Positions 8,785 through 59,140 of a stretch of 64,000 bases of DNA are shown here, in pieces. The notes beneath the pieces were generated by a model. The model was not told the origin of the DNA. It did no database searches and saw only the letters and a program-made list of their open reading frames with translations. The stretch's first letter is position 1, and the number at the start of each line of letters is the position of its first letter. The stretch is taken from NCBI RefSeq assembly GCF_002355155.1, contig NZ_AP017369.1, positions 3,472,001 through 3,536,000 of the forward strand, read 5' to 3'. A program made the translations under genes and the position numbers. The DNA is from Corynebacterium suranareeae. GTDB lineage: Bacteria; Actinomycetota; Actinomycetes; Mycobacteriales; Mycobacteriaceae.

Positions 8785-8905
8785 ATGCTGTTTAAACCCG
8801 ACTTGAGCCAATCTCATTAGAGGAAGATCACATTGGCTCTTGAGCAGTGCAGATTTTTGGCATGGAGGACAATTTCGGCAATAGTTTGCCATGAAAATGA
8901 GCGAT

Positions 8906-9260
8906 AGGCGTTTATCGATTGTTTGAGGCCTCGAGTTTTCTGGATGAGATTTGATATGCGGTTGACCTTGAAAACCCGTTAGAAGCGCTTCTGGGGAGGT
9001 ATGACTTTTCACGCTAACGGCCTAAATTTGAGAGCGACCACACCAGGAGACCCAGAATCCTTAAAAAAGTGGATGCTGGGTCTCTGTGTTTGGTATTGAA
9101 CGCGATACACCAAACCAGGAGACCCAGAAACTTCGAAAACGTGATTTCTGGGTCTCCTGGTTTGGTCTTATGCCGGTCTTATGCCGTTAAGTGCACGAAC
9201 GCCTAGATCCGCACGGGGCAAACAGCTATTTCGGCACTAATTCGGCCCAAGTCGGGTTAG
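8906..9260. repeat. Structured intergenic repeat, copy A
   Basis: This fills most of a 950-base gap with no credible gene. A conserved module (core 8966-9022) is followed by two long hairpins. The second has a perfect 22-base stem (9109-9130 with 9145-9166) containing AGGAGACCCAG and its complement; the first (9038-9058 with 9074-9095) is imperfect. The tail at 9231-9259 resembles the direct repeats around copy B. The element matches 43726-44065 for about 280 bases in the same orientation at high identity. Diverged relatives lie at 47405-48015 and, inverted, at 58675-58925. No T-run follows the hairpins, so simple termination is unlikely. The rest of the gap (9260-9690) shows nothing recognisable. 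Confidence 0.8.
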
Positions 9261-9703
9261 ACGGTTCAGTTGTGCAAAACCCGTATTCAGGTTCAGCCGA
9301 CTACATCCAGCTCACTATACGCAAATCTCTAAAGCTGAGGTTGAGGGTTTTCCGTATGGCTCGCAAAAACACCCCTTCTGTTTTGGCGCCTAACGGACAA
9401 ACAGGCACACTCGCATACTTGAACCCATTTAGACCACATCGACCCCTTAAAACGGCACAGAAAGCATTTTCATCTAGAGAAGCGTCTAATTCATCTTTGA
9501 ACTACCAAAAATCAACGCGAGTTTCGCCCACAGTTCATATGAATTTAATTAGAAACTTTTAATATATCTCCCAGGTGTTGGACATTCTTTAACTTGGTTA
9601 TTTTCAACCTCATCCTGCTGAAACAGCGGAATGAGGTTTAGCTTTTTGCCACATGGTGTCCGCATGAACATTTCTAATTCAACATTGGACCTTGAGGAAA
9701 CTC

Positions 9704-15544: not shown

Positions 15545-16306
15545 CTATTGCGCAGCCTTGGAATCTCCATCGATGGGGAACTGCTGGCCAGAAATCGTCC
15601 TCGCATGTGGTCCTGCAAGGAAGACCGCCAAGGCCGCAATATCTTCTGGATCGGTGAATTTCTTAATGGATTGATTCGCTAAACCGGCTTCCATCTCAGC
15701 CTCAACACTTCGCCCAGAAACTTCCGCCCGTCCAGCGAAAACCTGCTCGAGGCGCGGTCCATTCACTGCGCCGGGATGAATGGAGTTAACCGTAATTCCA
15801 AACGGACCAAGTTCAAGTGACAGCGTTTTGGTAAAGCCAATCAAACCCCATTTCGAGGTTGAATAGGCAATACGGTTGGGGTAGCCGAAACGCCCAGCGA
15901 GTGACGACATGATCAAGATGGAACCACCAGAGGTTTTCAACAACGGCACAAAATGTTGCACAACATTGAATGAACCAGTGAGGTTAATATCCATCACGGC
16001 TTTCCACGCGCCTGCATCATATTCTTCGACCGGGGCAGTAGGGCCAGCGATACCAGCATTACTTACCAGCACATCAAGCCCACCCCAGCGGTTTTCCAAG
16101 TCTGATGCAAGTGCGGCTATATCTTCAACGGAGGTAACGTCTCCGATGCTGGTGCTTAAATTCTCGTGGGAACCGGCAACCTTGTCCACTGCTTCGGCGC
16201 TGACATCCACAATGTGCACCAAGCTGTTTGTATTGAGAAATGCTTGAGCTATAGCCCAACCAATCCCTCCGGCACCGGCTGTGATCAGCACTCGTTGTTG
16301 TGACAT
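15545..16306 (-). CDS. Short-chain dehydrogenase/reductase
   Basis: The 253-residue classical SDR has VLITAGAGGIGWAIA (cofactor loop), an acidic residue in HIVDVSAEA that favours NAD, NAGIAGPTAP, the catalytic Ser in ILIMSSLAGR and YSTSKWG with the Tyr/Lys pair. It probably oxidises a secondary alcohol to a ketone or the reverse. It is the last gene of the MFS-ligase-SDR operon, 6 bases after the CoA ligase. In that context the likely job is to turn a 3-hydroxy acid into the 3-keto acid used by the ligase; this is an inference. Confidence 0.85.
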   Translation of the reverse strand: MSQQRVLITAGAGGIGWAIAQAFLNTNSLVHIVDVSAEAVDKVAGSHENLSTSIGDVTSVEDIAALASDLENRWGGLDVLVSNAGIAGPTAPVEEYDAGAWKAVMDINLTGSFNVVQHFVPLLKTSGGSILIMSSLAGRFGYPNRIAYSTSKWGLIGFTKTLSLELGPFGITVNSIHPGAVNGPRLEQVFAGRAEVSGRSVEAEMEAGLANQSIKKFTDPEDIAALAVFLAGPHARTISGQQFPIDGDSKAAQ

Positions 16307-16312
16307 AAGTTT

Positions 16313-18340
16313 TTATTCCTTTGCTTCAGATCGTTGTTGAGCGTATTCCTTAAACCAGGCGAGGGCGTCTGGGTTTTTTACAGAATCAGGGTTGACTTCC
16401 CGCCCTGCAGACTGCGGACTAAAGAATTTCTTCAAGGGCACTTCGAGGCGCTTCATGGTGTGGGTGACTGGAATATCGGGGGCAACGATGATCTCATCAG
16501 GGACGTGGCGAGCACTTGTGCGAGCTCGAAGCGTGGTGCAGATCCTCTGTTGGAGGGCATCATCTAGCTCAACCCCATCTTCCAGAACTACGAACAGCGG
16601 CATCCAATATCCACCGTTGTCCTCTTCGATACCTAGCACAAGGTAGTCGGATAGTTCTTCAATATCAGTCAGTGCATCGTAAATATCAGAAGGTCCGATT
16701 CTCACACCTTGTCGGTTGAGGGTGGCATCAGCTCTGCCGTGAACAATGAACTCTCCACTGGAAGTGCGGGTGATCCAATCACCATGCATCCAAATCCCTT
16801 CACCTTCAGTGAAATAAGAGGACTTGTAGCGAGATCCATCTGTATCACCCCACAACATCACTGGCATGGAGGGAAGCGGCTTTGTCACAGCCATGGCTCC
16901 CACCTGATCAATTTGTGGCTGACCGTCTGCATCGTGAGCTTCTACGGCCACGCCTAAAAGTGGGCCTTGCAGATAGCCCAGGTGAACCGGCTCCATGGGG
17001 TTTGAGCCTAGGAATCCACCGCAAATATCAGTTCCGCCAGAATCAGATCCCAAGTGCACATCTGATTTCACGGCATCGTGCACCCAGCGCCACGTGCTTG
17101 GTGGCAGTGGGGAACCGGTAGACAAAATGGAACGCAGTGCAGAAAAATCACGACCTGCTCGGGGATCAATTCCTGCTTTTTCCACCATGGTTAAATAGGC
17201 AGCTCCAGTGGCAAACATCGTCACGCCGAAATCAGAAATGATCTGGAAGTGATGATCCTTGCCGGTGACTTTTGGTGAGCCTGCATAGGTCACTACTGAC
17301 GCTCCGGCAAGAAGATTTTGCACCAGGGTGTTCCACACCATCCATGAGGTATTCGCAGCAACGTAGTAGACATCGCCGGGACCAATATCTTGGTGGAGGG
17401 AAATATTCTTTAGTCCATCTAGGACCATTCCGCCGTGCCCATGAACAATGCCTTTGGGTTCACCGGTAGTTCCGGAAGAAAAGAGAATCCACAAAGGATC
17501 GTTGAAACCAACGCGTTCATATGCAGGTGCGTGTGGCTTGTTCACACACTCGTCGAAGGCTAGTCGCTTCACGTCTTTACCCGAAACTACTCCTGGCTCG
17601 CGTTGAGTATCCAAAATACGGACAAGTACAGTTGCGGAAAGTGAAGGCAGGCCTGCTTCCACCTCAGCGGTGTGTTCACGGCGATCAATTTCTTTACCAC
17701 CGAACACATATCCATCACTGGCCACTAGAACTTTAGGTTCCAGCTGCTTTACTCGGCGGATACTTGCTTCAGCAGAAAGGTCTGGAGAGTTAATTGTCCA
17801 TACTGCACCGATGCTGGCAGCAGCTAGAAGACCGATGATTGCTTCAGGAACATTCGGCAGCACAGCAGCGATGCGATCTCCGCGCTCAACACCAAGTTCT
17901 TTAAATATTGCAGCAAGGGACGCCACTTGGGATTCCAGCTGAACCCAGCTCAGCACCGTGTGGCTTCCATCTTCTTCTACTTGGTAGATGGCAGGCTCAT
18001 TGGCAAGCAGGGGGTTGTGCGCATGTCGGAGAACATTTTCAGCGAAATTCACCCTTGCTCCGGGAAACCAGGATGCAAATGGCATGACGTGTTCTTTGAG
18101 TACTTCAGAAGTGTCAAAGCCTTCACCAATGACATCAAAATAGCTTTGGATAGAACGCCAGAATGCTTCTACTTCTGTGACAGACCAATCCAGCAAAGAG
18201 TGGAAATCAGGTAGTGAACGTCCCGCAGGAACTTCTGAGTAGCGGGCGAAATCAGCCATTCTTGATGAACGCACTTGTTCTGGCGTTGGGTTCCAGGTGA
18301 TGGTTGCTTCCGGTGATTCAGGGGCAAAGGCGGTTGACAT
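16313..18340 (-). CDS. Acetoacetate-CoA ligase-type acyl-CoA synthetase
   Basis: The 675-residue adenylate-forming enzyme has the full-length acetoacetyl-CoA synthetase layout. The N-terminus has ITWNPTPEQV and FHSLLDWSVTEVEAFW; the ATP motif is LFSSGTTGEPKGIVHGHGG; GSDSGGTDICGGF and MLWGDTDGSRYKSSYF follow. The hinge is GRADATLNRQGVRIG, and TMKRLEVPLKKFF holds the expected catalytic lysine. It would activate acetoacetate or another 3-keto acid with ATP and CoA. The start follows ACGGAGGTCACTC. It stands between an MFS carrier and the SDR in one operon. Confidence 0.88.
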   Translation of the reverse strand: MSTAFAPESPEATITWNPTPEQVRSSRMADFARYSEVPAGRSLPDFHSLLDWSVTEVEAFWRSIQSYFDVIGEGFDTSEVLKEHVMPFASWFPGARVNFAENVLRHAHNPLLANEPAIYQVEEDGSHTVLSWVQLESQVASLAAIFKELGVERGDRIAAVLPNVPEAIIGLLAAASIGAVWTINSPDLSAEASIRRVKQLEPKVLVASDGYVFGGKEIDRREHTAEVEAGLPSLSATVLVRILDTQREPGVVSGKDVKRLAFDECVNKPHAPAYERVGFNDPLWILFSSGTTGEPKGIVHGHGGMVLDGLKNISLHQDIGPGDVYYVAANTSWMVWNTLVQNLLAGASVVTYAGSPKVTGKDHHFQIISDFGVTMFATGAAYLTMVEKAGIDPRAGRDFSALRSILSTGSPLPPSTWRWVHDAVKSDVHLGSDSGGTDICGGFLGSNPMEPVHLGYLQGPLLGVAVEAHDADGQPQIDQVGAMAVTKPLPSMPVMLWGDTDGSRYKSSYFTEGEGIWMHGDWITRTSSGEFIVHGRADATLNRQGVRIGPSDIYDALTDIEELSDYLVLGIEEDNGGYWMPLFVVLEDGVELDDALQQRICTTLRARTSARHVPDEIIVAPDIPVTHTMKRLEVPLKKFFSPQSAGREVNPDSVKNPDALAWFKEYAQQRSEAKE

Positions 18341-43626: not shown

Positions 43627-43685
43627 GTTGCGACATGGCTTGGCCCAGGTTGGTGCGCGAAGTTCATTCTTGGCACTTAGGTAAA

Positions 43686-44065
43686 TTTCCGCACTAATTT
43701 GACCCAAGTCAGGAAATTGAGGTCAAGGCGTTTATTGCCCGTTTAAGGGGTTAAGTTTTTCGAATGAATGTTTGTACAGATAAGGCCTTGAAAACCCGTT
43801 AGAAGCGCTTCTGGGGAGGTATGATTTTTCAAGGTAACGGCCTAAATTTGAGAGCGACCAAACCAGGAGACCCAGAATCTTCAAAAACTTAAATGTTGGG
43901 TCTCTGTGTTTGGTACCTAGCGCGATACACCAAACTAGGAGACCCAGAAACGTCGAAAAAGTGATTCCTGGGTCTCTGTGTTTGGTCCTATGCAGCCAAG
44001 CGTAAGAACGCCTAAAACCACACGGGGTAAACAATTATTTCCGCACTAATTTGACCCAAGTCAGG
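43686..44065. repeat. Structured intergenic repeat, copy B, with flanking 28-base direct repeats
   Basis: It has the same module (core 43786-43842) and twin hairpins (43858-43914 and 43928-43987) as copy A at 8906-9260, in the same orientation. A perfect 28-base direct repeat flanks it (43686-43713 and 44038-44065, including GCACTAATTTGACCCAAGTC). Copy A keeps only a degenerate form of the right one. No gene lies in 43627-44152. Confidence 0.82.
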
Positions 44066-44124: not shown

Positions 44125-44152
44125 AGCGTCGAAAAGCGTGCTTTTTAGCGTT

Positions 44153-47404: not shown

Positions 47405-48015
47405 ACGATTGCACGAATCCACCACAAATCTTAAATTTCCCGTGGTTTGTGGTGGATTGGTGCATGATTAGGCCTAAAATCTGCACGAATCCACCACAAA
47501 CATGTTCGATTTAAAGATTTGTGGTGGGGATTTGCATGTGCGAGGCCAGCAACCAGGTTTTAAGCTTGGAGTCCTAATCAATAAAAGGAGCGCAGAAACC
47601 CCTTCTGCCACAGCAGGCGATTTAAGGGGTTGGACTTTCTCAAATGAGTCTAGGTGTGGGTATGCCTTTATTAAGCGCTTACAAGCGATTCTAGGAGGGG
47701 TCAGTTTTGGGGCTATTGTGACTAATGTGAAACCTGGAAGTTTGCTGATCAAATTCTCGTCCCCGTCTGCACTGACTGGGCTGAATCTGGTCGAAAATTC
47801 GCATTTTCAACCCTCCATTATGCAAATATTCGTTCGATTCCAGTAACTCGCCCAGCAAACCGAACGAATATTCGCATCCGGGCTACACTCGCGTGCCAAT
47901 CCACCATTTTTCACCACCCGCCACCTGAAAATGGTGAATCCTAACGCTTTTCGACCCCCAAAAGCGTGCCAATTCACCAGTAAACTCAACCCGCCGAGGA
48001 TTAATGGTGAATCCT
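47405..48015. repeat. Diverged structured repeats C and D in the cca/NUDIX gap
   Basis: Two hairpins with stems GCACGAATCCACCACAAA and near complements lie at 47411-47463 and 47483-47536. A diverged copy of the conserved module lies at 47617-47716, with the TTAAGGGGTT and AAGCGCTTACAAGCGATTCT positions recognisable. A third set of hairpins follows: 47821-47836 with 47861-47876 (ATATTCGTTCG), then two with GGTGAATCC-type stems at about 47894-47945 and 47967-48015. The 850-base gap therefore holds at least five long hairpins and no credible gene; a 114-codon frame at 47502-47846 lies in this repeat and is not counted. Confidence 0.7.
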
Positions 48016-48141
48016 AACCAACATCCGACATCACTCGGAAACCCAAAAGAAACTCAAGCGAAGTTGACCACGTGAAGACGCATATAAGAAGTCATTTAAC
48101 CCCCGGGCGGTTCATTAGTACCGAATACCCACCTCTCACGA

Positions 48142-58674: not shown

Positions 58675-58925
58675 CTCCGACCAAACATAGATGACAAGAT
58701 TTTCGATTTTCACGAATCTTTGTCATCCCTGTCCGGTTTGAGGCGAGATAAACCAAACATATGTGTCAAGATTTTGAGTTTTCTGGTTTTCTTGGCACCC
58801 ATGTTTGGCCTGGCGTGGGTGGTCGAAATTTTGGCGGCTAACCTCCCGAAATGCGAGGCTCCAGAATCGTTTCTGACGGCTTTTCAAGGCCCTACCTACA
58901 CCAAGGATCATCGCAGATTTTGGAC
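58675..58925. repeat. Structured intergenic repeat, inverted copy E
   Basis: Two long hairpins (58690-58705 with 58713-58727, and 58753-58770 with 58791-58808, stem CCAAACATATGTGTCAAG) precede a segment at 58833-58891. That segment's reverse complement matches the conserved module core of copies A and B (GGCCTTGAAAA...TTCTGG...). The order module-then-hairpins is preserved when read on the reverse strand. Confidence 0.7.
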
Positions 58926-58967
58926 GCCTTAAAAACGCTCTAAGTGTGCCGCCAACTTAAGGGCGAT

Positions 58968-59125
58968 TTCTTAAGTTCGATACCGCACTTCCGATACCTC
59001 ACGCTCAATTTCTTAATACCGATTTCAGTGCGATTTCCACTTAAAACCGACTGGTATTGAATGTGCGAAATTGAGGATAAGGAATTGGAAACGCGAAATC
59101 GAAGTTAAGGTATCGAAGTTAAGGT
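58968..59125. repeat. Long imperfect hairpin beside copy E
   Basis: TTAAGTTCGATACC at 58971 pairs with GGTATCGAAGTTAA at 59109, CTCAATTTC at 59004 with GAAATTGAG at 59067, and AATACC with GGTATT inside. Together they form one nested hairpin of about 150 bases between cwlM and the GNAT gene. Confidence 0.6.
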
Positions 59126-59140
59126 AGGGGACGGCCTTGG

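Follow-up and report, generated by a model that had tools for sequence, protein, structure and literature searches.

Background

The described systems closest to the repeats reported here are MITEs of the IS1634 (IS1549) family, RAYT-associated REP and BIME sequences, and stem-loop repeats of the ERIC/NEMIS type. IS1634 and IS1549 have been reported to make repeats of 8-514 bp (PMC2266710), and PMC3733652 gives REPs as 20-40 bp. The stem-loop repeat survey PMC1590033, again in its available part, describes intergenic stem-loop families near gene 3' ends and names one Corynebacterium, C. diphtheriae.

We analysed a family of intergenic repeats that is represented in a 64,000-nucleotide stretch of Corynebacterium suranareeae (NZ_AP017369.1, positions 3,472,001 to 3,536,000), here called the window. 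Its commonest class, class I, is like the MITEs of the IS1634 family in its terminal repeats, in lacking a transposase gene and in the long, variable direct repeats around some copies. It differs from them in having a conserved module and long twin palindromes with a fixed 72-nt spacing and exchangeable stems; moreover, the C. suranareeae genome holds no full IS of that family and the other classes have no recognised terminal repeats. REP and BIME sequences share with our family the many palindromic intergenic copies, the mosaic make-up, the alternating orientation and the location at gene 3' ends, but the arms and elements found here are much longer. A RAYT-type REP was ruled out by the lack of a Y1 (HUH) transposase: PF01797 had 0 matches in the C. 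suranareeae genome and was positive in 5 of 14 named control genomes. The ERIC/NEMIS-type repeats are likewise intergenic stem-loop families near gene 3' ends, but twin stems at fixed spacing with exchangeable sequence do not appear in the available part of the survey. In the accessible parts of the literature, mostly non-subscription papers without their supplements (including PMC4046766, PMC1590033, PMC3890552, PMC8715038 and PMC10969869), we recognised no earlier description of the family.

Results and discussion

Copies in the window

An earlier note on this DNA had placed a related module at four positions in the window, with a pair of hairpins directly after it in copies A, B and the inverted copy, D. 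A sequence-only model, R2, built from 80 copies that include these four, finds all of them (E values 3e-25 to 4e-20) together with a decayed fifth (Table 1). The coordinates confirm the twin palindromes directly after the module in A, B and D, and the second palindrome of copy A reaches the 22 perfect pairs claimed as the maximum. In copy C, palindromes of other classes flank the module on both sides. That the stem differs from copy to copy is true of A and B against C and against D, but A and B share one stem class.

Table 1. Modules, palindromes and terminal repeats of the family in the window (positions count from the first letter of the window)
Feature	Position	Strand	Remark
Copy A left terminal repeat AACCCGACTTGAGCC	8795..8809	+	inverted partner of 9244-9258
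Copy A module, class I	8906..9035	+	model R2 match 8910-9031
Copy A first palindrome	9037..9094	+	
Copy A second palindrome	9109..9166	+	arms 9109-9130/9145-9166, 22 nt, 100% complementarity; start 72 nt past the first
Copy A right terminal repeat, IS1634-family type	9228..9258	+	
Fifth module copy, decayed	9359..9461	-	model R2, E 3e-6; absent from the earlier list
Copy B 29-nt terminal-repeat copy	43685..43713	+	direct repeat of 44037-44065
Copy B module, class I	43727..43856	+	model R2 match 43730-43851
Copy B twin palindromes	43857-43914, 43929-43986	+	starts 72 nt apart
Copy B right terminal repeat	44037..44065	+	
Class III palindrome pair upstream of copy C	47410..47538	+	starts 72 nt apart
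Copy C module	47612..47734	+	model R2 match 47614-47732
Copy C class V palindrome	47820-47877	+	
Copy C class IV palindrome pair	about 47891-47945 and 47964-48018	+	starts 73 nt apart
Copy D module, class II	58821..58946	-	model R2 match 58822-58945
Copy D twin palindromes	58752-58809, 58680-58737	-	starts 72 nt apart

Two other repeats occur nearby. One family, GATACCAGTCGG...GAAATCGAACTTAAGAAACCAAGG, with long imperfect inverted arms, lies at 58949-59130 in the window and also at loci L086, L087, L103, L119, L129, L133 and L136. It often stands directly to the left of class II and class VI modules, and the constant junction that several copies show gives the impression of two joined repeats. 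A further repeat is the motif GGCGTCGAAAAGC, which also occurs as its complement and is frequently adjacent to CCTCCCTCC. It is found at about 44128-44138 in the window and in the flanks of L002, L023, L112 and L020, and recurs in many intergenic flanks at gene ends.

Family size and distribution

Model searches bear out the proposal of a repeat family with further copies. With R2 at E<=0.001 we found at least 150 module copies in the C. suranareeae genome (all 150 of the 150 scored candidates), while 100 of 150 scored candidates matched in a relative, G100 (3,309,401 bp), which may be Corynebacterium glutamicum ATCC 13032. In a third genome, G076, 48 of 150 matched. A genus-wide search with stricter filters and at most 14 candidates scored per genome gave R2 matches in 9 of 242 Corynebacterium genomes at E<=1e-4, the 233 genomes without a match serving as control. 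Model R1 under strict filters had placed the family in 1 of 41 relatives, fewer than the later R2. A narrower module model from 27 copies yielded at least 143 matches in the C. suranareeae genome at E<=1 (150 of 1004 candidates scored); leaving out the 24 of these 143 with E above 7.8e-4 gave the set of 119 copies analysed below.

A blastn search of the same genome with copy A had 88 first-look candidates. Scoring 40 of them gave at least 40 places with a bit score of 231 or above, about half of which cover nearly the whole element. Copy B had blastn matches in 4 of 242 genus genomes, G209 among them through the terminal repeat only. As to a plasmid or phage origin, copy B was unmatched among 72,556 plasmid and 50,697 phage records. 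Two pattern scans of a set of named genomes that may omit near relatives gave no match in one and three unrelated, chance-like matches in the other.

Palindromes with fixed spacing and different stems

A copy consists of a module of about 130 nt and one or two palindromes of about 58 nt, in an element of about 300-460 bp with no gene inside. The arms measure about 22 nt and the loop and gap about 14 nt each, so that the period is 36 nt for the arms, whose orientation alternates, and 72 nt for the palindromes. Among the 119 copies, 49 of 60 pairs of neighbouring palindromes have a centre-to-centre distance of 72 nt; at the threshold used, two or more palindromes were detected in 58 copies, a single one in 41 and none in 20. 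Assigned by counting motifs up to about 215 nt from the module, the stem classes number 59 copies for class I, 25 for II, 19 for VI, 3 for V, 2 for IV and 2 for III, with 9 unclassified. Class VI palindromes are short and mostly fall below the threshold (3 of 19 copies counted), and the figures for spacing and mispairs thus rest on classes I and II.

The earlier note had also held that pairing is kept whatever the stem. We found several unrelated stem families, each pairing with itself: taking one palindrome per cluster, an arm pairs at 0.89 with its own partner and at 0.25 with the partner from another cluster. The clustering produced 20 clusters from 167 of 182 palindromes, after removal of 15 whose arms were shorter than 18 nt. 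Some of these clusters represent ordinary terminators or repeat one stem in a shifted register. The corollary that selection does not act on stem sequence goes too far. The stem families are indeed unrelated, but class I stems are nearly alike across 30 aligned copies and most of the variation lies between families. Such near-identity suggests that class I is one lineage that has multiplied.

The genomes G100 and G072 carry partly different stem families, self-pairing too, and some copies of both show the 72-nt spacing. At the matched loci L166 and L114 the modules begin at about the same base and the stems are wholly different, both still paired. For the pair L151 and L075, the G100 partner of L075 is short of one palindrome unit, leaving a 62-nt gap. 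The fixed spacing is kept while the stem sequence differs between copies and species.

IS1634-type ends and direct repeats

The earlier note had recognised no insertion sequence, which is wrong for class I, the commonest class (59 of 119 copies, including A and B), whose terminal inverted repeats match those of IS1634-family elements. Read by eye, about 27 of 30 aligned copies have TTTCGGCACTAATTTGACCCAAGTCGGG or a close variant as their right end; a left end was found in 12 of the 30, two of them doubtful. With up to 3 mismatches the right-end pattern occurs in 18 of 242 genus genomes, the C. suranareeae genome included. At the two loci where a transposase next to such an end was looked for, L173 and L189, the pattern adjoins ORFs that NCBIfam names as IS1634 family, at 311 and 338 bits (cut-off 100 bits).

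Long direct repeats of 25-110 bp, 84-96% identical, accompany 9 of 59 class I copies, consistent with the long and variable target duplication typical of the IS1634 family. Such repeats were found in 2 of 19 class VI copies and in 0 of 41 other copies, and the control with mismatched flanks gave 1 of 119, a stem. The scan excluded by rule all matches holding element motifs, and of the nine class I matches one spans just 25 bp (E 9e-5). Neither A nor B belongs to these nine copies, a detectable long repeat being absent from 50 of 59 class I copies. In the few copies inspected by eye, the repeats abut the element ends; the left repeat of L112, a class VI copy, stops where the module starts. Classes II-V show neither terminal repeats recognisable by eye nor long direct repeats, and no IS1634-type terminal repeats were recognised by eye in class VI. 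The IS1634-type ends and the long direct repeats in part of class I are established. We conclude that class I consists at least in part of IS1634-type MITEs, unusual in their interior. Classes II-VI share the module and palindromes with class I and presumably moved likewise, the long repeats of two class VI copies being the only such repeats among them.

Genome G250 offers a parallel. Its loci L212-L215 hold four identical 1681-bp IS1634-family elements with matching left and right ends; direct repeats of 56 and 114 bp flank two of them, and for the other two none was read within 120 bp. They are a second actinobacterial case of odd target duplications in the IS1634 family.

No IS1634 transposase reached the cut-off of 100 bits in the C. 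suranareeae genome (best 27.8 bits) or in G100 (28.3 bits), the positive control G250 scoring 338 bits, and class I therefore has no autonomous partner in its own genome. Such a partner may have been lost, and its absence weakens the claim of present activity, not that of origin. We propose that an IS1634-family transposase, no longer encoded here, would have moved class I in trans.

RNA or DNA level

The earlier note had explained the paired stems by selection on structure. If that structure is RNA, the transcribed module and twin hairpins would be kept as double-stranded RNA, for example as RNase III substrates or small RNAs. Consistent with this, the predicted RNA folds of copies A, B and D are stable against dinucleotide shuffles (z -6.4, -4.0 and -3.6) and unrelated stems keep their pairing, but such a fold excess is expected of any long palindrome. 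In the module, RNAalifold predicted no pair in the consensus of 80 diverse copies and a weak consensus structure in the 27-module set, ruling out a structured RNA module, and Rfam has no match within the window. Pairing is kept in the various stem families, but without strand preference, unlike covariation on one strand.

Selection on one RNA strand is expected to leave more G-T than A-C mispairs. Their ratio is 147:131 in the C. suranareeae genome (159 palindromes), 28:16 in G100, leaning to G-T (23 palindromes), and 16:24 in G072, G061 and G076 together, leaning to A-C (21 palindromes). Pooled, it is 191:171 (p 0.32), with the caveat that relatedness within a class makes the counts interdependent. 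Selection on an RNA strand of the stems is thus unsupported by the mispairs, and the copies also have no preferred direction relative to transcription, 17 lying along it and 24 against it in tandem gene contexts. Of 12 class II copies, 8 (e.g. L082, L092 and L097) have a T-run right behind the second palindrome, against a background of 5.5%, which speaks in favour of the RNA reading; class I has none (0 of 42 copies, 0 of 101 palindromes). Its presence in class II suggests that some of these copies may have been reused as transcription terminators. For the family as a whole, we consider a structured RNA very improbable.

The near equality of G-T and A-C mispairs makes the palindromes look symmetrical, as expected for sites acting at the DNA level or for correction by template switching. 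The second of these would dispense with selection: template switching and repeat recombination would correct the arms towards each other, and conversion between related copies would leave the stems paired and similar within one genome. The symmetrical mispairs, the stem families that partly differ between genomes and the palindrome unit gone from the G100 partner of L075 all fit such a mutational origin, but it leaves unexplained why classes with unrelated stems, in G100 and G072 too, have the 72-nt spacing in common. We regard it as possible but rather unlikely. We favour instead palindromes that act at the DNA level, where they would be putative spaced sites bound by the transposase or by a host protein.

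Genomic position and turnover

Gene context could be scored by a simple longest-ORF rule for 95 of the 119 copies. Convergent gene pairs surround 49 of them and divergent pairs are rarely hit (5 of 95). This distribution, like the T-runs of class II, could indicate elements that serve the host as bidirectional terminators or in organising the chromosome, having spread when mobile and been retained where genes converge. Nevertheless, class I palindromes are never followed by a T-run, some of the gaps already have an ordinary terminator, and rarity in promoter regions is equally expected from purifying selection; a host function is therefore improbable in our estimate. Under the mobile-element reading that we prefer, copies would persist at the 3' ends of genes because their presence is nearly harmless there.

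Within 400 kb of G100, both flanks could be located for 21 C. suranareeae copies, in 20 gaps. The matching G100 gap holds a module for 9 of the copies and none for 12. Among the 12 are clean empty sites, e.g. opposite C. suranareeae positions 687701 and 603625; the module-less gaps opposite 325323 and 3329359 are long rather than clean. The presence of copies opposite empty sites in a relative is thus as well established as the copy number and the anatomy. In the nine shared gaps the orientation is the same in 5 and opposite in 4 (3139689, 2509206, 293229 and 3224952), which suggests that some gaps were hit more than once. Viewed from the other genome, the flanks of 15 of 20 G100 copies match the locus of a C. 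suranareeae copy by eye, and the element is reversed in 5 of these 15 (L155, L157, L159, L164 and L165). The idea that shared loci are retained copies is weakened by this, since reversed elements represent separate insertions or inversions.

At the G100 locus L195 (about 16070-18171), opposite C. suranareeae position 384928, about 2 kb of additional DNA comes after the module and, judged from its sequence, resembles an IS inserted at or near the element.

Conclusions

Taken together, these results suggest that the family probably consists of non-autonomous, MITE-like mobile DNA elements of one Corynebacterium branch, with palindromes at the DNA level. It is conceivable, as a tentative extension, that some further DNA-binding or transposase protein recognises the palindrome arms. 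The sites, a hundred or more per species, would have been rewritten in step with the changed protein, and the 36/72-bp spacing would be the fixed part that a protein complex measures. If this holds, the family would be one in which the spacing is conserved and the sequence is not.

Fixed spacing with replaceable stems amounts to a natural experiment on how palindromes endure, through selection for a binding array or through correction by template switching, and the shared and empty sites found here make that question testable. If G100 is indeed C. glutamicum, an industrial model organism carries about 100 copies of an apparently undescribed element family, with consequences for annotation, for IS-free chassis work and for the reading of intergenic transcription.
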